Assembly: GCF_000423085.1 (NCBI RefSeq)
Contig: NZ_AUHH01000029.1
Coordinates: 1 to 56,215 of the forward strand
Length of the DNA stretch: 56,215 nucleotides
Direction: 5' to 3'
Source: Granulicoccus phenolivorans DSM 17626 = NBRC 107789 = JCM 15570
GTDB taxonomy: Bacteria > Actinomycetota > Actinomycetes > Propionibacteriales > Propionibacteriaceae
Part shown: positions 37,437-46,355 of the stretch, in pieces
Layout of the letters: the number at the start of each line of letters is the position of its first letter
Position numbering within the stretch: position 1 is the stretch's first letter
Made by a program: the position numbers and the translations under genes
The notes under the pieces: model-generated
Databases searched by the model: none
What the model was told of the DNA's origin: nothing
The model's input: only the letters and a program-made list of their open reading frames with translations

Positions 37437-38204
37437 GTGACCTGGTGGGAGAGGGGACGCGGAGTCTTGCGCGAAGCGCGCGACTTCCAGCGGCGCCGCT
37501 CCAGCGGTCGGGCCCGGATCGCCACGATCCTCACCATGGTGGTGATCGGGGTGATGTTGAGTGCCAGCGCCCTGCATGCCCGGGGGACCGATCTGCGGCC
37601 GACCCGGAACACCAGCCTGGCCGGTCTGGTCGAGGACAAGTCGGCCAGCAACCGGGAACTGGCCCGCCGGGTGAGCGCCCTGCGGGCCGAAGTCGATGCC
37701 CTCGGCGTACCGTCGCAGACCGACGGCGGGCAGGCCCGGACCGAACTGGCCCGGGTGGCGGCCGCCGCGGGGACCGAACCGGTGCACGGGCCGGCGGTCA
37801 CCGTGGTGCTCTCCGATGCGCCCACCTCGGTGCGGGCGCCCGACATCGACCAGGATCTGCTCGTGGTGCACCAGCAGGATATTCAGGCCGTCGCGAATGC
37901 AATGTGGCAGGCCGGTGCGGAGGCCATGACGATTCAGGGGCAACGGGTGTTGGCCACCACCGGGATCAAGTGCGTCGGGAACTCGGTCGTCCTGCACGGC
38001 ATCCCGTACGCCCCGCCGTACGAGATCACCGCCATCGGCGACACCGGCCGGATCCGTCAATCTTTGCAGGACTCGGCCCACCTGCGGGCGTACCGGCAAT
38101 TTGCCGATGCATACCACCTGGGTTATGAGGTCAATACCCAGGCGGACGCGGAATTGCCCGGATATCAGGGGGCATTGACGCTCAAGTACGCAAACCCCGG
38201 CTGA
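37437..38204 (+). CDS. DUF881-family membrane-anchored protein
   Basis: A 255-residue protein with one N-terminal helix (IATILTMVVIGVMLSASALHA), a short coiled coil (SASNRELARRVSALRAEVDAL) and an external DUF881 domain (GPAVTVVLSDAP...DLLVVHQQDIQAVANAMWQAGAEAMTIQGQRV, then NSVVLHGIPYAPPYEITAIGD). The family is always near crgA and pknB in actinobacteria and is presumed to serve division or envelope growth. The GTG at 37437 has GGAGGGA six bases upstream; an ATG at 37365 would add 24 residues but has no such site. Confidence 0.88.
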   Translation: MTWWERGRGVLREARDFQRRRSSGRARIATILTMVVIGVMLSASALHARGTDLRPTRNTSLAGLVEDKSASNRELARRVSALRAEVDALGVPSQTDGGQARTELARVAAAAGTEPVHGPAVTVVLSDAPTSVRAPDIDQDLLVVHQQDIQAVANAMWQAGAEAMTIQGQRVLATTGIKCVGNSVVLHGIPYAPPYEITAIGDTGRIRQSLQDSAHLRAYRQFADAYHLGYEVNTQADAELPGYQGALTLKYANPG

Positions 38205-38270
38205 CTGCCCTTATTTACGAGGGCAATACTGCTTCGGAAACACGGTTTCGCGATAGTACGGATCGGTCCA

Positions 38271-38276
38271 TATTAT
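38271..38276 (+). promoter_or_regulatory. -10 box candidate for the exopolysaccharide operon
   Basis: TATTAT stands in an AT-rich patch 110 bp before the first gene of the operon; no good -35 is visible at 17 bp. The 181-bp gap after DUF881 also holds a weak hairpin, GCCCT/AGGGC (38207-38224). A long leader of about 100 nt would result. Confidence 0.4.
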
Positions 38277-38385
38277 CGAGGCAGCAGGCGCGGGTGTCCG
38301 AAAAACGCACCGAGCTCCGGGGGGACTCGGGCGGGGGCTTCGCCTGTGTCGCCCAGTGATCAGCCTATTCGGGGGAAATGCACTC

Positions 38386-40503
38386 ATGCCGAAAACTCGA
38401 GGTCGCCGTCTGCGGTCGGTGCTCCCTGCCGTGGCGTTGGGGCTGGCCCTGATCGTGACGGGGTGCACCGCGCCGGCCCCGCCCGAGCAGCACCAGGACT
38501 CCAGCCAGACCCCCACCGGCCCGGCGGCCGAGCCCGCCAAGGTGGCCGTGGAGTTGCGCACCCTGGTGCTCGATGACGGGAGCAACATGATCCGCTCCCT
38601 GGCCGACCGGCTGGTCCGCGAAGGCGTCCCGGTGGAGCGGGTGCTGCTGGGAGATCGCTCCCGCAAGGCGGTGACCCGGGACATGCTGGCCGGCACCGAC
38701 GCCTCGGGCGCGGTCACCGCACATTTCTCCGGAATCGTGGCGCCGTCGCTGACCTCCGGCGCACTGACCGCGGCCGAACAGGCGACCCTGTCGGAATATG
38801 TGAGCACCTTCGGCGTGCGGAGCGTACGGACCGACATGACGGCCCTGTTCCCCGAGAACTTCGCGGAGGTGTCGACCGATGGCGCGAAGGTGAACTTCAG
38901 CGAGGCAGCCGCTGCCGGTCCGTTCTCCTACCTGCAGCGCAGCATCACCTTCGATGAGTCGGAGGCGGGCGGGTATCGGGCGCCGAAGGCCGGACGCCCG
39001 CCCAAATTGGCCGCCGCGGCGCAATATCAGCCGCTGGCCACCATGGATGTCCCGGGCGGGGGCACCGCCGATCTCCTCGCGGTGACCCGGGAGGGCAATC
39101 GCGAGGAGATGCTGGTCACCCTGGAGGGCGACCCCGAGCAGGCCCACATCCAGGCGCTGACCCACGGCATCATTCGCTGGCTGAACCGGGACGTGACCAC
39201 GTCCTACAGCCGCAACTACTTCTCGGTGGACAGCGATGACGTGCTGTTGCCCAACGCGCAATGGAGCGTGGCCGGACACTGTGAGGTCGGGCGCAACTGC
39301 CCGCCGACGGTGGAGCAGCTGCCCCCGATCCGGATGACCGCCGCCGACATCGATTATCTGGTCGCCTGGCAGCAGGGTTCCGGCATCAAGGTCAGCCTCG
39401 CCCTGAACGGTGCCGGGGCGGGCGAGCATGCCCTGTCCAACTCGGGGCGGGACGCGCTGATGGAGCAGATGGTCGCCCAGCGTTCCGAACTCCGCATCCT
39501 GAACCACACCTGGAACCACAACTTCCTCGGGTGTGACCGGGTCCTGCTGCCCGATGACTGGCGGTGCCTCGGGGACGACAAGGGCAACACCCGCTGGATG
39601 AGCAAGAAGGACATCTACGCCCAGGTGGCCAAGAACCAGCTGTTCGTGGAGAAGAACGGCTTGGAGAACTACAACCAGACCGAACTGGTCACCGGCGAGC
39701 ATTCCGGACTGGCAAAGCCGCCGCAGCAGCCCACCGACAACCCGAATCTGGCACCGGCCCTCGACGAGGCGGGGATCAAATGGGTCGCCTCGGACACCTC
39801 CACCGAGGCTGAGCCGCGGCAGATCGGCGGGGCCACGACGGTGCCGCGCTATCCGATCGACCTGGACTACAACACCCCGACCGGGCGTCAGGTGGCCGAT
39901 GCGTACAACTGGAAGAACACCTCGAAGGCCGACGGCGGCTCCGGCGAGTGCGAGACCGCCACGGACAATCCGTGCGTGGCCCCGATCAACATCGACACCG
40001 GGTTCAACCAGGTGATCGCGCCGATGGAGGGGGAGAAAGCGTACGCCCACGTGGTCGCCAACGACGCGCGGCCCCACTTCGTCCATCAGGCCAACTTCAC
40101 CGGCGATCGGGTGATCTATCCGATGCTCGACAACATGCTCGGGCGCTACCACGCCACCTTCGCCGACTCCAGCCCGCTGCTGAACCCGACCATGTCCGAG
40201 GCCGGCACCGACCTGATGAACCACCGCCACTGGAGCGAGGCGACCGGCCATGTGGTGGCCTCGGTCGCCGGGCAGACCGTCCGGCTCAGCAACACCGGGA
40301 CCACGCCGGCGCTGGTTCCGGTCACCGTGCCCGAGGGGGCCCGCACCGTCCGGGACGGACAGCTTACCGGCGGGTTCGGGACGAGCTACCAGGGGGCGAC
40401 CTCGGACTGGGTCAGCGTGGCCCCGGGGGCCACGGTCACCATTCAAACGTCCGCGACGTCCGGCTTCGCCACCGACGCCACCTGGTCAGCGAAAGGCAAC
40501 TGA
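38386..40503 (+). CDS. Secreted lipoprotein with Agd3-like (CE18) polysaccharide-deacetylase domain
   Basis: A 705-residue lipoprotein; signal MPKTRGRRLRSVLPAVALGLALIVTGC ends in a lipobox. Residues ~50-270 resemble a Rossmann-like carbohydrate-binding part (LRTLVLDDGSNMIRSLADRL). Residues ~285-560 carry deacetylase-type metal motifs: YFSVDSDDVLLPN (Asp pair), ILNHTWNHNFLGC (two His) and HFVHQANFTGD. Order and size match Agd3, the fungal galactosaminogalactan deacetylase with an N-terminal CBM87. A beta-sandwich-like C-terminus follows (~610-705). De-N-acetylation of a GalNAc polymer at the cell surface is inferred. The ATG at 38386 is preferred over GTG at 38356. The stop overlaps the next ATG (TGATG). 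Confidence 0.72.
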   Translation: MPKTRGRRLRSVLPAVALGLALIVTGCTAPAPPEQHQDSSQTPTGPAAEPAKVAVELRTLVLDDGSNMIRSLADRLVREGVPVERVLLGDRSRKAVTRDMLAGTDASGAVTAHFSGIVAPSLTSGALTAAEQATLSEYVSTFGVRSVRTDMTALFPENFAEVSTDGAKVNFSEAAAAGPFSYLQRSITFDESEAGGYRAPKAGRPPKLAAAAQYQPLATMDVPGGGTADLLAVTREGNREEMLVTLEGDPEQAHIQALTHGIIRWLNRDVTTSYSRNYFSVDSDDVLLPNAQWSVAGHCEVGRNCPPTVEQLPPIRMTAADIDYLVAWQQGSGIKVSLALNGAGAGEHALSNSGRDALMEQMVAQRSELRILNHTWNHNFLGCDRVLLPDDWRCLGDDKGNTRWMSKKDIYAQVAKNQLFVEKNGLENYNQTELVTGEHSGLAKPPQQPTDNPNLAPALDEAGIKWVASDTSTEAEPRQIGGATTVPRYPIDLDYNTPTGRQVADAYNWKNTSKADGGSGECETATDNPCVAPINIDTGFNQVIAPMEGEKAYAHVVANDARPHFVHQANFTGDRVIYPMLDNMLGRYHATFADSSPLLNPTMSEAGTDLMNHRHWSEATGHVVASVAGQTVRLSNTGTTPALVPVTVPEGARTVRDGQLTGGFGTSYQGATSDWVSVAPGATVTIQTSATSGFATDATWSAKGN

Positions 40504-41954
40504 TGCGCGTAGGCCTGTTCACCGAGGGCACCTACCCGGTCACTTCCGGTGGTGTCAGCACCTGGTGTGAGCATCTGATCACCGGGCTGCCGGAACACAC
40601 CTTCGTCCCGATCACGCTGATCGGGGGGACCGAGACCGCCCGCAGCGGGCTCCCGGACAATGTGGCCGAGGTGACCCTGGTGCCGATGTGGGGGCACGAA
40701 CGCGCCCCGGTGCCGATCGTGGACTCCGGGGATGCCGCCGCACTCGGCCGGATCCTGCGCCGGCTGTGGACCGCGGTGCTGCCCGCCGAGGGCGACGGTG
40801 ACCTGGCGGGGTTCACCGCCTGCCTGAAGGAGCTGACCGGCTGGCGCGGCCACCGGTTGGGCTCTCTGCTGAGCCGCCACGGCAGCACCCGGCACATCAT
40901 TGACGCCTGGACCCGGCACCGCACCGGGCGGGCCGATCTGCCGGTGATGACCCTCGCCGATGCCGCCGCGGCGGCGGCCATGGTCGATCGGATCCTGGCC
41001 CTGGCCGACCGTCGATTCCCCGAGGTGGACATCAGCCATGTCGCCTCCAACGGGTCGCCCTCGATCCTGGCGCTGGGCCGCTGGTGGCAGCACGGCACCC
41101 CGATCGTGGTGACCGAGCACGGGATCTACCTGCGCGAGCGCCTGCTGGCCCTGGCTGCCGGCGACCTGAACTGGTCCACCCGGTCGGTGATCGGCACCTT
41201 CCTGCGCCTGCTCACCCAGGCCACCTATGCCGAGGCCGTCGCGATCGCCCCGGTGAGCGACTTCAACCGGGACTGGGAGCTGTATCTGGGGGCGGATCCG
41301 TCCCGGACTCGGACGATCTACAACGGGGTCGACACCACCGGCTACCGCCCGATCGGCAGCGAGCCGGCCGAGCCGACCGTGGTCTTCGTCGGCCGCATCG
41401 ATCCGCTGAAGGCACTGGAGGTGCTGGTGGATGCCTTCGCCCTGGTCCGCGACCGGGTGCCCGGGGCCCGACTGCGCATCTTCGGTCCGACGCCCTCGGG
41501 CAACGAGGCGTACCTGGCGAGTCTGCAGGAGCAGGTCCGGCTGGCCGGGCTGACCGAGAGCGTCAGCTTCGAGGGCGCGGTCGAGTCGTCGATGACGGCG
41601 TTCGAGGCGGCCACCGTGGTCGCGCTGTCGAGCATCTCCGAGGGCCTGCCGTACGGGGTGATCGAGGCGATGATGGCCGGGCGGCCCAGCGTCAACACCG
41701 ACGTCGGCGGGGTTGCCGAGATCGTCGGCCGCGACGGTACCTGCGGGATCGTGGTGCCACCGCGCGATCCGGAGGCCTTCGCTGCCGCCCTGACCGACCT
41801 GCTCACCGATCCGGCCCGGCGGCACGCGCTCGGTCGGGCCGCCCGGGAGCGGGCCACCCGCCTGTTCAACATGGCCGACTTCCTCGATGCCTACCGGGAC
41901 CTGTACCGCCGGGCGTACGACAGCGCCGATCACCCGCTGGTGGGTGCCCGATGA
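40503..41954 (+). CDS. pelF: PelF-like GT4 glycosyltransferase (DUF3492 + GT4)
   Basis: A 483-residue cytosolic glycosyltransferase. The first ~270 residues match DUF3492 of PelF: MRVGLFTEGTYPVTSGGVSTW, GLPEHTFVPITLIGG and PIVVTEHGIYLRERLL. The GT4 half follows with IYNGVDTTGYRP, VVFVGRIDPLKALEVLVDAF, SISEGLPYGVIEAMMAG (the EGxP...E nucleotide-sugar motif) and NTDVGGVAEIV. PelF polymerises N-acetylgalactosamine-type Pel polysaccharide from UDP-GalNAc in other bacteria, so the product here is probably a GalNAc- or hexosamine-rich glycan. It overlaps the next gene as ATGA. Confidence 0.88.
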   Translation: MRVGLFTEGTYPVTSGGVSTWCEHLITGLPEHTFVPITLIGGTETARSGLPDNVAEVTLVPMWGHERAPVPIVDSGDAAALGRILRRLWTAVLPAEGDGDLAGFTACLKELTGWRGHRLGSLLSRHGSTRHIIDAWTRHRTGRADLPVMTLADAAAAAAMVDRILALADRRFPEVDISHVASNGSPSILALGRWWQHGTPIVVTEHGIYLRERLLALAAGDLNWSTRSVIGTFLRLLTQATYAEAVAIAPVSDFNRDWELYLGADPSRTRTIYNGVDTTGYRPIGSEPAEPTVVFVGRIDPLKALEVLVDAFALVRDRVPGARLRIFGPTPSGNEAYLASLQEQVRLAGLTESVSFEGAVESSMTAFEAATVVALSSISEGLPYGVIEAMMAGRPSVNTDVGGVAEIVGRDGTCGIVVPPRDPEAFAAALTDLLTDPARRHALGRAARERATRLFNMADFLDAYRDLYRRAYDSADHPLVGAR

Positions 41955-43282
41955 GCGCCGGGACCGTGGCGCCGACCCCGGGCGGTCGGGCAGCGCTGCA
42001 GCAGGTGGCGGCCTCGGGGACCGACATCTACGAGGTCACCGCGCGGCTGGAGTCCTCCGGCGTCTCCCGCGGGGTGGCTGCCGCGCACGGCTACGAGTCG
42101 GTGTTCGACTTTGCCCACACCATCACCGAACAGGTGCCCGCCGAGGAAATGCAGGCGTCCCGGCAGCGTCATTCCGGGCGCAACCGGGTCTCCCTGCGGG
42201 CCTCGCTGATCCGCATGGTGGTGATGCTGTGCGGGGTCATCCTGTGTGCCACCAGCCTGCCGCAGGCCTCGGAGATGGCCGTGTTCCTGATGGCGGCCAG
42301 CGGCTGGATCGTGGGCCAGGCGGTCAGCGCGTCCGCCTGGTACGCCTGGGGTGCCGGCCGCCGCCGTGACGGGATGGCCGCCGCCGGGGTCGTGGGTCTG
42401 GTCCTGCTGGTCGTCTCCGCCATCGCCGCGGCCGTGTCCGGACTGCCCGGACTCCTGGTCTGGGTCGGGGTCGGCGCCGCAACGCCGATCCTGCTGCTGC
42501 TGGCCAACGGGGCTGTCCTGGTGGTCGCCGGAGTCGCCACCGCGGCGATCTGCGGGATCTCCTGGTTCGCCCGCAACCACTACGCCTGGGCGCCGTCCGC
42601 GCTGGCGCCGGTGGGGATTCCACTGGCCTACGCGATCACTGCGGTCGCGGTCCTGGTCGCGGCCGTGCTGCTGGTCCGCGAGGTGCGGGGCGCCCGGCCG
42701 CGGTATGTCCGCGGCGGCGCCCGCGCCCTGATCGTGGCCCTGCTGCAGGTGCTGTTCCAACTGGTCGTGCTGCTGCAGATCTTCCTCGGCGTCGGGGCCA
42801 GCGAGTTCGGCGCGGTCGCCCTGGCGGTGATGGCTGCCGGTGCCCTGACCGACCCCCTGCTCACCGTGCAGGCGATGTGGACCCATCGGGTCTCCCAGCG
42901 GTCGGACTCCTGGCGCCGCGGACGGTTCCAGATCGGGCTGTTGGGGGTGGTGATCGTGGTGATCGTGCTCGTGATCACCGCCGCCGCGGTCCTGATCGTC
43001 CTGTCCGACCCCTACCGGATCACGCTGAACGAACCGGCGATCGTCGCGGCCGCGGTGTTGTGCAGCGCGGTGATCTGCGGCACGAACATCCTGTTGCGGA
43101 CCGGCTCCCGACTGAGTGCCATGCTGTTCGCGGCGCTGGCCGAGCTGCTGGTGGCCATCACCTTGTTCTTCCCGGCCGACGAGCCGAGCGGGTTCTACGC
43201 GATGGCGGCGATGGCGGCGCTGATCAGCCTCCTGGCCCTGCTGGTGGCCGCGGCGCGCTTCGGACATCCCACGGCGTGGTGA
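41951..43282 (+). CDS. Polytopic membrane protein, probable PelG-like polysaccharide exporter
   Basis: A 443-residue protein with a ~85-residue polar N-terminus and about 12 hydrophobic segments (MVVMLCGVILCATSLPQ, AVFLMAASGWIVGQAVSASAWY, VGLVLLVVSAIAAAV and on to ALISLLALLVAAARF). I see no motif that fixes the family. Its place directly after a PelF-type transferase suggests PelG or another MOP-type flippase; the size is close to PelG. It overlaps its neighbours by 4 bp on each side (ATGA, GTGA). Function is inferred from context. Confidence 0.6.
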   Translation: MSAGTVAPTPGGRAALQQVAASGTDIYEVTARLESSGVSRGVAAAHGYESVFDFAHTITEQVPAEEMQASRQRHSGRNRVSLRASLIRMVVMLCGVILCATSLPQASEMAVFLMAASGWIVGQAVSASAWYAWGAGRRRDGMAAAGVVGLVLLVVSAIAAAVSGLPGLLVWVGVGAATPILLLLANGAVLVVAGVATAAICGISWFARNHYAWAPSALAPVGIPLAYAITAVAVLVAAVLLVREVRGARPRYVRGGARALIVALLQVLFQLVVLLQIFLGVGASEFGAVALAVMAAGALTDPLLTVQAMWTHRVSQRSDSWRRGRFQIGLLGVVIVVIVLVITAAAVLIVLSDPYRITLNEPAIVAAAVLCSAVICGTNILLRTGSRLSAMLFAALAELLVAITLFFPADEPSGFYAMAAMAALISLLALLVAAARFGHPTAW

Positions 43283-43920
43283 GCGCCCGTCCGGCGGCGC
43301 CCTGGTACGTCCATCCGAGCCAGGATGCGGCGGCCTGGCGCCGGCTGGTGGAGGGCTGCGGGCTGGCCTTCGCGGTGATCAACGTGCACAACGGCCCGGG
43401 GACCGAGCCGGATCCGGCGTACCGGGCCGCCCTGGCCGACGGGAGTGCGACCCGGCTGCTCGGCTATGTCGATGTGGCGTACGGGGCGCGGCCGGTCCGG
43501 GCGGTGCTGGCCGAGGCGGCCGAATGGCGGGCCCGCTACGACGTCCGAGCGGTCTTCCTCGACCAGGTACCCAGCACCCTGCGGGCGGGCGCGTGGTCGC
43601 TGGAAGTCGTCGATGCCCTCCGCGCCGCCGACTGCGAACTGGTCGCGCTGAACCCCGGGACGGTGCCCCATCCCGACGTGGTCCGCGTGGCCGATGTCAC
43701 CTGCGTCTTCGAGGGCACTGTCGGCCAGCATGCGCGGGCGCAGTACCCGGCGTGGTTGAATGCCTCTCGTGAATCCGGCGTGTGGCACCTCATCCATTCG
43801 TGCCCACCGTGGCGCCAGCAGGCGGCCCTGCGGCGCGCCGCCCGGCACGGGGCACAGTTCGCCTGGGCCACAGCGGGCAAACCCCCGAATCCCTGGCAGC
43901 AGCTACAGAAGCGGTGGTGA
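43279..43920 (+). CDS. Spherulin-4/GH135-like protein (Sph3-type galactosaminidase family)
   Basis: A 213-residue TIM-barrel protein without signal peptide. It follows the Spherulin-4 pattern: PWYVHPS...W at the start, VINVHNGPGTEPDPAY (family iNPnsGPG...dp.Y), LGYVDVAYGARPVRAVLAEAAEW, AVFLDQVPS, ALNPGTVPHPDVVRVADVTCVFEGTVG. GH135 members such as fungal Sph3 cleave GalNAc chains and are required for galactosaminogalactan synthesis. The usual FxDE pair reads FLDQ here; the later FE glutamate is kept. GTG overlaps the previous stop as GTGA. A cytosolic place is unusual for this family. Confidence 0.78.
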   Translation: MSARPAAPWYVHPSQDAAAWRRLVEGCGLAFAVINVHNGPGTEPDPAYRAALADGSATRLLGYVDVAYGARPVRAVLAEAAEWRARYDVRAVFLDQVPSTLRAGAWSLEVVDALRAADCELVALNPGTVPHPDVVRVADVTCVFEGTVGQHARAQYPAWLNASRESGVWHLIHSCPPWRQQAALRRAARHGAQFAWATAGKPPNPWQQLQKRW

Positions 43921-43923
43921 CCA

Positions 43924-44772
43924 ATGAACGAACGTGGCGCTGACCGGGCCCGTCCCGGAGCCCTGGCGGCCGGCCTGCTGGCCGGTCTGCTGCTGCTCAC
44001 GGGCTGCTCGACCTCGGCCGACACCAGCACCGAGGAGACCCCGACCACGTCGGTCCGGCCGGCGACCCCGGGCTCGTGGTGGGTGCCCGAACGCGGCGCC
44101 TCCTTCCAGATCCAGTACGCCGGGCAACCCGACCTGACCCTGCCGGTGGCGGTGTACAACCTCGACTGGGAGTCGACCACCACGGAACAGACGGCACAGT
44201 TGAAGGCGCGGGGCGTCAAACTGGTCTGCTACATCAACGCGGGTGCATCGGAGAATTGGCGATCGGACAAGCAGAAATTCCCGCGTGAGGTGATCGGAAA
44301 GTCGATGAAGGGCTGGGAGGGGGAGAACTGGCTCGACGTGAACCGGACCGATGTTCTGGTCCCGATCATGGCCGCCCGCATGCAGGTATGCGCGGACAAG
44401 GGCTTCGACGCGGTCGATCCGGACAACACCGACGGCTGGAATCAGAAGACGGGGTTCACCATTACCCCGCAGGCCCAGATCGCCTACCAGACCGCCCTGG
44501 CCCAGGAGGCGCACAATCGGGGAATGGCGATCGGGCTCAAGAACGACGCCAAGCAACTGGCCGATCTTTCCCACGTCGTCGACTTCGCGGTCAACGAGCA
44601 GTGCATCGAGTACCAGGAATGCGACCCCTACGTGCCGTTCCTGGCGTCGGGCCGGGCGGTGTTCAACATCGAATACACCGGGGATCCGGCGACGGTCTGT
44701 GCGCGTCGCCCCGCAGGTATGTCGACGGTGATCAAGGATCTCAGCCTGGACGGACCCTTGCAGAGCTGCTGA
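43924..44772 (+). CDS. GH114 endo-alpha-1,4-polygalactosaminidase-like lipoprotein
   Basis: A 282-residue lipoprotein; a hydrophobic signal (ALAAGLLAGLLLLTGC) ends in a lipobox. The barrel matches GH114 (Ega3, TM1410-like): VAVYNLDWEST, LVCYINAGASENWRSD, FPREVIGKSMKGWEGENWLDV, GFDAVDPDNTDGWNQKTGF, MAIGLKNDAKQLADL and FAVNEQCIEYQEC. The Asp in DAVDPDN and Glu in VNEQC occupy the catalytic positions of Ega3, which cuts de-N-acetylated galactosamine. It starts three bases after the GH135-like gene ends and closes the operon. Likely trims or releases the deacetylated polymer outside the membrane. Confidence 0.9.
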   Translation: MNERGADRARPGALAAGLLAGLLLLTGCSTSADTSTEETPTTSVRPATPGSWWVPERGASFQIQYAGQPDLTLPVAVYNLDWESTTTEQTAQLKARGVKLVCYINAGASENWRSDKQKFPREVIGKSMKGWEGENWLDVNRTDVLVPIMAARMQVCADKGFDAVDPDNTDGWNQKTGFTITPQAQIAYQTALAQEAHNRGMAIGLKNDAKQLADLSHVVDFAVNEQCIEYQECDPYVPFLASGRAVFNIEYTGDPATVCARRPAGMSTVIKDLSLDGPLQSC

Positions 44773-44792
44773 GCCGATCTGGCCGGCGCGGA

Positions 44793-44831
44793 ACCGGAAC
44801 GACCCGCCCGAATCGGGCGGGTCGTTCCGGT
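44793..44831. terminator. Perfect 18-bp hairpin ending the exopolysaccharide operon
   Basis: ACCGGAACGACCCGCCCG (44793-44810) and its exact complement (44814-44831) enclose the loop AAT. No T-run follows on either strand. It stands between the GH114 gene and the convergent proline/alanine-rich gene, so it may end transcription from both sides. Confidence 0.7.
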
Positions 44832-44854
44832 ATGCGTGGCTCGCGCGCGGTGGA

Positions 44855-45574
44855 TCAGGGGGCCGCGGTCGCGCTGGGGTGCGCAGCCGTGGGCTGGGTG
44901 GAAACCGAGGGCTGCGCCGGAGGGTTCGTGGTGGCCGGCGCCTTGGTCGGCGCGGCCTGAGTGGTTGCCGGGGCCTTGGTGGGAACGGGGGCGTGCGTCA
45001 CCGCGGGGGCCTTGGGCGCCACGGACGCCTTGGTCGCCGCCGGGACGGTGGCCTTCGCCGACGCGTTCACCTGCGCGGGGGCCTGGCTGGCCCGGGCCGG
45101 CGGGACCGACTTCTTGAGGACCGGCTGCTTGCTGGGCTTGGCGGCCGGCGCGCGGCGGACCGGCCCGGCATCGTTGGCCGCGGCATCATCGGTGGGTTCG
45201 GGGCTGGGCGGGGCTTCCCAGACCGGGGCCGGCGAGACCAGGTCCTGGTTCACCTGGGGGTCTTTGCCCAGCGGCATCGATACATTGGGGGCGTCGTCGG
45301 CAGGCTTGCCGATCCAGCCGGCGGTGGCCGTGGACATGGCCATCCAGGCGACGGCCAGGCCGGCGACGATCAGGGCGATGACGGCCGCGGCGACCGAGGC
45401 AAGGCGGGTACGCCGCTGGACGCGGGGGCGCTGCCAGGTGGAAGCCTTGCTGAACCGGTGCGCGCCGGCCGACGTCGCGGCTACGGGATCACCGGCCGAC
45501 TGTGTGGTCGACGCAGTGGCGACGTCGTCGGATGGGACGTCTTCGGGGCTCTTTTGTTTGACGGACGTTTCCAC
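44855..45574 (-). CDS. Single-pass membrane protein with Pro/Ala/Thr-rich external tail
   Basis: About 239 residues from GTG 45574; ATG 45628 and TTG 45646 are alternative in-frame starts, none with a strong ribosome-binding site. A polar N-terminus and basic RPRVQRRTR precede one helix (LASVAAAVIALIVAGLAVAWMAM). The outside part is low-complexity, with repeats such as PTKAPATT. I recognise no domain. Its place, where relatives often have a sortase between DUF881 and trpG, and its wall-spanning composition suggest an envelope role, which is inference. Confidence 0.6.
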   Translation of the reverse strand: METSVKQKSPEDVPSDDVATASTTQSAGDPVAATSAGAHRFSKASTWQRPRVQRRTRLASVAAAVIALIVAGLAVAWMAMSTATAGWIGKPADDAPNVSMPLGKDPQVNQDLVSPAPVWEAPPSPEPTDDAAANDAGPVRRAPAAKPSKQPVLKKSVPPARASQAPAQVNASAKATVPAATKASVAPKAPAVTHAPVPTKAPATTQAAPTKAPATTNPPAQPSVSTQPTAAHPSATAAP

Positions 45575-45680
45575 GGCGTTTGCCTGCCAATCTTGACTGA
45601 TGCCTGTTCCGGCGCAAGCGTAAATCATCGAAGTGGCGCCAACCAATTCAAGAGGTGCCCCATTATTCTGGGACAGAAGC

Positions 45681-45725
45681 CCTGAGAAATAAGGTCATTA
45701 GTTGAGAGATTTCTCAGGGTTTTTG
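45681..45725 (+). terminator. Hairpin plus T-run between trpG and the Pro-rich gene
   Basis: CCTGAGAAAT (45681-45690) and ATTTCTCAGG (45709-45718) form a perfect 10-bp stem, followed on the plus strand by GTTTTTGG. It has terminator form for rightward transcription, yet both flanking genes run leftward. It may serve trpG as a hairpin without a tail, or end an antisense transcript. An AATAAT (minus strand, 45662-45667) beside it could be a -10 for the Pro-rich gene. Confidence 0.45.
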
Positions 45726-45731
45726 GCTTGT

Positions 45732-46355
45732 TCAGGGACGCGTCATCAGTGGCGCCAGCCCGGCGCCGATCCGGGCTGCGTCGGGATCGCCACAGGCGGT
45801 GAGCCAGTTGCCCAGGATCAGGTAGCCGCTTTCGGTGAGCACCGACTCCGGGTGGAACTGCACCGCCTCCACGGCCAGGTCCCGATGCCGCACCCCCATG
45901 ATGATCCCGTTGTCGGTACGGGCACTGACCTCCAGGACCGGGGGAACGTCGATGATCGCCAGCGAGTGGTAGCGGGTGGCGGTGAACGGATTCGCCACGC
46001 CGGCGAAGACGCCCCGGTTGTCGTGGGTGACCGGGGACACCTTCCCGTGGCGCAGTTCCGGGGCGCGGCCGACCACGCCGCCGTAGGCGATCGCGATCAC
46101 CTGCAGGCCCAGGCAGACCCCGAAGATCGGCAGTCGCCCGGCGTACGCCCGGACCAGCTCGACGCAGCGCCCGGCCCGCTCCGGGGTGCCCGGTCCGGGG
46201 GAGAGCAGCAACCCGTCGAAGTCGGCGGTCAGGTCCCGGTCCAGCCGGGCATCGTCATTGCGCCACACCGTGACCTCGGCACCGAGTTGGCCGAGGTATT
46301 GGGCGATGTTGTAGACGAAGGAGTCGTAGTTGTCGACCAGCAGGATGCGCATCAT
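45732..46355 (-). CDS. trpG: Glutamine amidotransferase, anthranilate/aminodeoxychorismate synthase component II
   Basis: A 207-residue class I glutamine amidotransferase that supplies ammonia for anthranilate or 4-amino-4-deoxychorismate. It has [30 protein letters not shown], nucleophile Cys in IFGVCLGLQVIAIAYGG, RYHSLAI and AVEAVQFHPES. The name trpG or pabA cannot be settled because no component I lies nearby; actinobacteria keep this gene beside pknB. The ATG overlaps the pknB stop as ATGA. Last gene of the fhaA-to-trpG operon. Confidence 0.92.
   Translation of the reverse strand: MMRILLVDNYDSFVYNIAQYLGQLGAEVTVWRNDDARLDRDLTADFDGLLLSPGPGTPERAGRCVELVRAYAGRLPIFGVCLGLQVIAIAYGGVVGRAPELRHGKVSPVTHDNRGVFAGVANPFTATRYHSLAIIDVPPVLEVSARTDNGIIMGVRHRDLAVEAVQFHPESVLTESGYLILGNWLTACGDPDAARIGAGLAPLMTRP

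Follow-up and report, generated by a model that had tools for sequence, protein, structure and literature searches.

A five-gene operon for a putative cationic galactosamine polymer, with a probably cytosolic GH135 protein, in Granulicoccus phenolivorans and other actinobacteria

The galactosaminogalactan (GAG) of Aspergillus fumigatus and the Pel polysaccharide of Pseudomonas aeruginosa represent one class of cationic galactosamine polymers. The fungal GAG cluster comprises five genes, one of them named uge3. The founding members Agd3, Sph3 and Ega3 have been described as acting on alpha-1,4-linked chains of N-acetylgalactosamine and galactosamine (GalNAc/GalN) (PMC7229062, PMC12054363), and it has been stated that Sph3 prefers the fully acetylated chain and Ega3 deacetylated regions (PMC12054363; PMC7229062). 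Agd3 homologues have also been reported from 45 bacterial species by Bamford et al. (2020), including operons of this kind in actinobacteria (PMC7229062). Here we analyzed five co-directed genes, designated A to E, at positions 38386-44772 of a 56,215-nucleotide stretch of DNA from Granulicoccus phenolivorans DSM 17626 (hereafter the window), which is one entire contig (NZ_AUHH01000029.1) within a 4.12-Mb genome. Judging from protein families and structure models, we suggest that these genes probably form a module for a cell-surface poly-(alpha-1,4)-GalNAc that would be partly deacetylated to a cationic GalN/GalNAc polymer.

Layout, recurrence and protein families of the operon

The original prediction had described five genes running in one direction with overlaps of 1-4 bp or a gap of 3 bp, and checking the open reading frame positions gave exactly the same coordinates:

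Gene A, 38386-40503, plus strand: 705 residues; Agd3-like (CE18) polysaccharide deacetylase with three domains, lipoprotein
Gene B, 40503-41954, plus strand: 483 residues; PelF-type GT4 glycosyltransferase without a signal; 1-bp overlap with A
Gene C, 41951-43282, plus strand: 443 residues; membrane protein of MOP-type fold, probable exporter; 4-bp overlap with B
Gene D, 43279-43920, plus strand: 213 residues, GTG start; GH135 (Spherulin-4) barrel without a secretion signal; 4-bp overlap with C
Gene E, 43924-44772, plus strand: 282 residues; Ega3-like GH114 endo-galactosaminidase, lipoprotein; 3-bp gap after D

Five family profiles were run on 98 loci, including the window and four second copies of the same contigs; after removal of these four duplicates, later counts refer to 93 loci (loci and genomes are given by L and G numbers). 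Relatives of A are encoded by 570 stretches of the named collection, of which the best 80 were kept, so the sample leans toward close relatives. A was present in 97 of the 98 loci. The order A-B-C-D-E in the same direction was found in 56 of the 97 A-bearing loci and A-B-C-D in 15 more; an arrangement recurring to this extent is beyond chance, and the joint pathway that had been expected to recur in other genomes does so. The remaining 26 loci are partial or rearranged: 14 of them lie on contigs shorter than 16 kb, and among the other 12, A stands alone on longer contigs in three (L043, L071 and L074). The Agd3 gene of L041 is broken and the GH114 gene of L108 is disrupted. With the window's own genome counted, 6 of the 293 genomes searched in the order and 12 of the 396 in the phylum match A, several of the latter weakly. 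One match in each set was put aside as probable chance: G091, for which tblastn matched just 124 residues in L032 and which is missing from the A loci, and G581, with no tblastn match in L045, which lies outside the 98 loci.

Protein A, as a single sequence, gave a deacetylase match below threshold in Pfam (13.8 bits), no solved relative in the Protein Data Bank by phmmer, and no relative in the first scan of genome contigs, where a 13-sequence profile later found them. With the profile of A and 12 homologues, Agd3 (6nwz_A) was the sole Protein Data Bank match with an E-value below 0.1 (6.6e-5). The AlphaFold2 model of A (mean confidence score, pLDDT, 82.4) matches Agd3 across the N-terminal, CE and C-terminal domains: residues 52-694 align with residues 142-806 of 6nwz_A with a Z score of 29.4 and a root mean square deviation of 2.8 over 549 residues, and Foldseek gave an E-value of 1.8e-30. 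The next closest structure is the human N-deacetylase/N-sulfotransferase (Z 23.7), followed at a Z score of about 15 by deacetylases of peptidoglycan and other polysaccharides. D284 and D285 (the DD of CM1), H374 and H378 (the HxxxH of CM2), R488 (CM3) and H567 (CM4) are conserved in 92 or 93 of the 93 loci, the lone exception being L041, whose broken gene has a gap there. R488 and H567 were paired with R613 and H668 of Agd3 by motif, H668 also by a weak stretch of the profile alignment. The CBM87 domain lies inside the fold match, and two conserved tryptophans, W265 (92/93) and W293 (91/93), may belong to the aromatic residues of its binding groove. On the modeled fold and the conserved catalytic residues, A is an Agd3/CE18 homologue, as had been predicted; since the 705-residue protein matches Agd3, the possibility raised in the original prediction that it belongs to an unrelated family falls away.

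Secretion signals were scored as a 15-residue stretch with a mean Kyte-Doolittle hydropathy of at least 1.6 within 45 (or 95) residues upstream of the domain. Such a stretch precedes the domain of A in 89 of 93 loci (90 with the 95-residue window), and the N-terminus of A in the window is of the lipoprotein type with a visible LIVTGC motif. In a tree of A (46 rows, with L041, L042, L043 and L044 left out), the window groups with G207 (100/100); Dermacoccus and Propioniciclava are next by path, G054 and G064 of the window's own order fall in another group, and some end branches are long.

Protein B scored 171.1 bits against the PelF equivalog NF038011 (cut-off 100) and 141.3 bits against DUF3492. 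By this curated equivalog model B is PelF, in keeping with the PelF-like GT4 assignment made earlier. No upstream hydrophobic stretch was found in any of 82 B proteins with either window.

Protein C had been called a polytopic membrane protein, and this part stands: its AlphaFold2 model (44 homologues, pLDDT 85.1) begins with a helical segment of some 75 residues and continues with 12 long helices. VIA-align placed the model closest to MATE (Z up to 21.3), WzxE, the lipid III flippase (17.9), and MurJ (15.7); among the 50 matches listed, these three kinds span Z scores from 21.3 to 12.5, and the next fold, another pump, reaches 9.5. The best Foldseek E-value was 3.1e-4, with TM-scores of only about 0.3-0.5. 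PelG belongs to the MOP superfamily too. An identity of C with PelG found no support, as C had no match to the PelG profile PF16933 or to any other Pfam or NCBIfam model up to an E-value of 1, and hhalign gave a probability of 0.1% with a thin template of only two PelG sequences; nor was there a PF16933 match elsewhere in the genome. Most likely, C is a divergent MOP-type protein that serves as the exporter.

Protein E scored 261.7 bits against PF03537, and its closest solved relative is Ega3 (6ojb, E-value 1.1e-43), so the GH114 lipoprotein of the original prediction is confirmed, with an LLLTGC motif visible at the lipoprotein-type N-terminus in the window. Of 60 loci, 59 retain the catalytic D167 and 58 the catalytic E225, which lie 58 residues apart; those of Ega3 are given as Asp189/Glu247, likewise 58 apart (PMC12054363). 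A hydrophobic stretch lies upstream of the domain in 41 of 60 loci (56 with the 95-residue window), and a lipobox-like motif is present at the N-terminus in 53 of 60.

Location of the GH135 protein and related clusters

Protein D scored 96.5 bits against PF12138 (Spherulin4; cut-off 30.2), and its closest solved relative is Sph3 (5c5g, E-value 3.3e-8), in line with the GH135-like assignment. Asp95 and Glu145, as aligned to 5c5g, are present in 72 of 72 loci. The catalytic pair of Sph3 is Asp166/Glu222, which the spacing in the alignment of D with 5c5g fits. The pair is printed as Asp196/Glu222 in PMC12054363, from which the roles of the Sph3 residues used here are drawn in part.

The protein starts a few residues before the first barrel strand. 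By the sequence-based signal test described above, a hydrophobic stretch was found in only 1 of 64 measurable D proteins (2 of 64 with the 95-residue window), and eight more of the 72 have fewer than 15 residues upstream, which leaves no room for a signal. The sole protein positive with both windows, that of L044, comes from a different gene arrangement (with PelF, a genuine PelG and Agd3) and retains the Glu after the catalytic Asp. Because 63 of the 64 measurable proteins lack a secretion signal, D probably stays in the cytosol. The view of D as an Sph3 homologue in a fungal-like set holds for the family and the catalytic pair and fails for the secretion signal: the fungal Sph3 is membrane bound, whereas D lacks such a signal. 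The open-licence papers searched contained no report of a GH135 in the cytosol. In S. triculaminicus (L103:17917-19494), a single open reading frame spans D and E, and a lipobox-type segment separates the two; a genuine fusion would place D inside and E outside, but E may instead have a start of its own.

A second cluster, consisting of PelF2, C2 and D2 (a pseudo-GH135), was found in Streptomyces (L155:4377-10830 and L156:3862-9439), with no match to A or E within the 18 kb read. In L155, C2 and D2 are separated by a short-chain dehydrogenase/reductase (SDR) gene, and D2 is followed by a moeZ homologue that scores 757 bits, above the cut-off. A search with D2 of 246 genomes of the class gave matches in 27. 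Of the 19 loci close to D2 (61-100% identity), none retains the acid/base Glu and six lack the Asp as well; nine more distant aligned GH135 loci retain the Glu. This second cluster presumably corresponds to SCO5174-SCO5178 of S. coelicolor. A mutant study lists SCO5174 as a putative glycosyltransferase, with reduced actinorhodin production in its mutants (PMC6585502), and SCO5174, 5175 and 5177 are among the genes tabulated in a transcriptome study (PMC3610822).

Another related arrangement occurs in G306 and G336, from another class of the phylum, where PelF, a genuine PelG (459 and 471 bits against PF16933), Agd3 and a GH135 are clustered (L044:6471-13013 and L158:5348-11898). The GH135 of these clusters has both a signal sequence and the DE pair. 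The original prediction had proposed the operon as an actinobacterial intermediate between Pel and GAG. The operon is not a newly found intermediate, because actinobacterial agd3 operons had already been reported (PMC7229062), and the G306/G336 cluster fits that description better.

Genomic setting and sugar-nucleotide genes

On the Kocuria rosea RP1 plasmid NZ_CP126484.1, which is typed as mobilizable, A-B-C-D-E are the only annotated genes between two transposase copies (L153:6574-15910). These copies are inverted, 944 bp long and 100% identical, which is the layout of a composite transposon. A transposon-like copy of just these genes suggests that the five suffice in a new host. E is annotated short there, with an in-frame membrane anchor upstream. 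A plasmid search found 13 records that encode an Agd3 homologue, from Streptomyces, Deinococcus, Burkholderia, Thermus and Kocuria, and the ten listed are all annotated as hypothetical proteins.

DUF881 and TrpG are 7.5 kb apart in the window, with CrgA and PknB nearby, and between them (38204-45732) stand the cassette and a single hypothetical open reading frame. TrpG was found in 16 of 17 genomes of the family (that of the window included), and 11 loci of these were examined: the DUF881 and TrpG matches end 41-145 bp apart in seven and about 0.9 kb apart in two, and DUF881 was not found in the other two. This neighbourhood, with CrgA and PknB, is compact in members of the family. In the tree of A, moreover, the window lies by path nearer to Dermacoccus and Propioniciclava than to G054/G064, and horizontal acquisition of the cassette is the simplest reading. 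A conserved site was sought with CrgA, DUF881, TrpG and PknB, giving only two PknB-like matches (L042 and L031) in the operon loci of relatives. A search for a compositional island in 1.5-kb steps gave a GC content of 0.675-0.729 in the operon against 0.683-0.713 outside, with no clear step. The five-gene set is apparently mobile.

The original prediction had equated the enzyme set with that of the fungal cluster apart from the epimerase. No 4-epimerase is encoded in the five-gene cassette, as stated there; however, the genome encodes elsewhere one GalE over the cut-off (354.6 bits) and five weaker matches, and sister operons include the gene. A GalE-like match was found in 25 of 93 loci, and in eight it was strong (above the threshold of 150 bits, and all above 260 bits). 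In six Micromonosporaceae (L051, L060, L062, L068, L076 and L080), galE lies directly upstream of A on the same strand; in G064 and G054 a strong GalE lies beside the operon but on the other strand. By family assignment, the six-gene operons with galE contain every enzyme kind listed for the fungal cluster.

Proposed pathway and comparison with known systems

Starting from the observed families, folds, catalytic residues, gene order, transposon-like copy and lack of a signal on D, we infer the chemistry, the direction of transport, the compartment of D and all functions as follows. Host GalE would provide UDP-GalNAc, which the cytosolic PelF (B) would polymerize into a chain, and the MOP-type protein C would carry this chain across the membrane. 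Surface-anchored A would deacetylate the exported chain, and surface-anchored E would cut it where it is deacetylated, so as to control its length, release it or remodel it. Inside the cell, the substrate of D would be the chain that awaits export and still carries its acetyl groups; D would either remove stalled chains or determine chain length. With A outside, acetylated chain would be present mainly inside and at the exit and deacetylated chain only outside, and the compartments predicted for D and E fit the acetylation preferences of Sph3 and Ega3. The fungal Sph3 has been suggested to keep the exit of the synthase from clogging (PMC12054363), and a cytosolic D could achieve this from the opposite side. 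More tentatively, and with a little less than an even chance in our estimate, the actinobacterial GH135 may be an intracellular part of a PelF-MOP synthase that acts on the acetylated nascent chain, its Streptomyces paralogue being a non-enzymatic subunit. If so, one barrel would have been put to two distinct uses, secreted in the fungal Sph3 and cytosolic in the bacterial GH135, and D would mirror the GH114 outside.

Several observations weigh against this scheme. No polymer is known from this organism. The sequence link between C and PelG was not found, and the fold of C leaves the direction of transport undefined. A lipobox-like motif upstream of A is rare (6 of 93 loci), although A is a lipoprotein in the window. 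Position 96 of D, which corresponds to Glu167 of Sph3 in the alignment with 5c5g, is changed in 71 of 72 loci (Q in 62, R in seven and C in two), so the activity of D may be changed, and D could also leave the cell by an unrecognised route. No obvious target-site duplication was seen at the outer ends of the Kocuria transposase copies. Furthermore, the gap between C and D exceeds 1.5 kb in 11 of 54 complete operons, and nine loci with such a gap (six among the 11) contain SDR-type and nucleotidyltransferase-type open reading frames by eye. On the S. californicus plasmid NZ_CP070247.1, the sole gap locus in which the families were determined, the interval from C to D (L154:14170-16850) holds three sugar-nucleotide genes, for a LegB-like dehydratase (453.6 bits, cut-off 475), an NTP transferase and a reductase/epimerase. 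With such genes in some of the gaps, the sugar polymerized by the PelF-type enzymes of this clade could be a different one.

These sugar-nucleotide genes, together with the fact that GAG itself contains galactose, speak for a module that makes a related but different amino-sugar polymer, built of another N-acetylated hexosamine or as a copolymer with galactose or a deoxy-sugar, with A and E acting on the hexosamine part only. However, the compact form in the window has no such genes, galE precedes A in the Micromonosporaceae operons, and the founding enzymes act on GalNAc/GalN chains, with the reservation that not every GH114 tested cuts Pel, FsGH114 being one that did not (PMC12054363). We consider a different polymer rather unlikely. 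Somewhat better placed, but still improbable, is the idea that D is a non-enzymatic cytosolic partner, structural or regulatory, of the PelF-C synthase with an inherited GH135 barrel. The altered Glu167 position would suit such a partner, as would the retention of D2 in the second Streptomyces cluster with neither Agd3 nor GH114 nearby and the loss of the catalytic residues in its close relatives; the invariance of Asp95 and Glu145 in the A-type set and the Glu kept in the nine other aligned loci argue for catalysis there. It is also conceivable that the operon uses a foreign polymer, such as fungal GAG or the Pel of other bacteria, with A and E attacking it outside, C importing the products and D finishing the work inside. 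The apparent location of these proteins and the directionless fold of C would allow this, but B is a PelF-type synthase over the equivalog cut-off, no sugar-catabolic enzyme or ABC importer is recognised among the five proteins in Pfam or NCBIfam, and endo-cutting alone would yield no monomers, which makes use of a foreign polymer very improbable.

The probable GalN/GalNAc module can be compared with four described or related systems. The literature searched did not mention a cytosolic GH135, the MOP fold of C, a transposon-like copy, the galE-containing form or the degenerate Streptomyces paralogue. The bacterial agd3 operons of Bamford et al. share the Agd3 homologue, a cytoplasmic glycosyltransferase, a multi-spanning membrane protein, GH114 and, in some Actinobacteria, Spherulin-4; in the parts of PMC7229062 consulted, the fold of the membrane protein, the location of Spherulin-4 and a transposon copy are not stated. 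The Gram-positive pelDEA(DA)FG operon (PMC7112168) is similar in having PelF, a polytopic membrane protein and a three-domain deacetylase. It differs in that the cassette lacks PelD and PelE, C is not detectably PelG, and the deacetylase A is Agd3-like. The absence of PelD and PelE from the operon, noted in the original prediction, holds for all five proteins in Pfam and NCBIfam, the rest of the genome not having been searched for them. B. cereus PelADA is described as lying outside the existing CE families (PMC13254593). The G306/G336 cluster shares PelF, Agd3 and GH135 and differs in its genuine PelG and secreted GH135.

The A. fumigatus GAG cluster shares the CE18 deacetylase, GH135 and GH114, with the epimerase present in the sister operons. 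However, its synthase Gtb3 is an integral membrane transferase, whereas synthase and exporter are separate here, and its Sph3 is membrane bound and acts outside, whereas the GH135 protein D has no signal (PMC12054363). The operon points to a minimal, apparently mobile five-gene set for a putative cationic galactosamine polymer of the class of GAG and Pel in actinobacteria, which would be amenable to its dissection. It also makes accessible to experiment the question of why such systems keep hydrolases together with synthases, as the hydrolase whose relative prefers the acetylated chain appears to be inside the cell and the one whose relative prefers the deacetylated chain outside.

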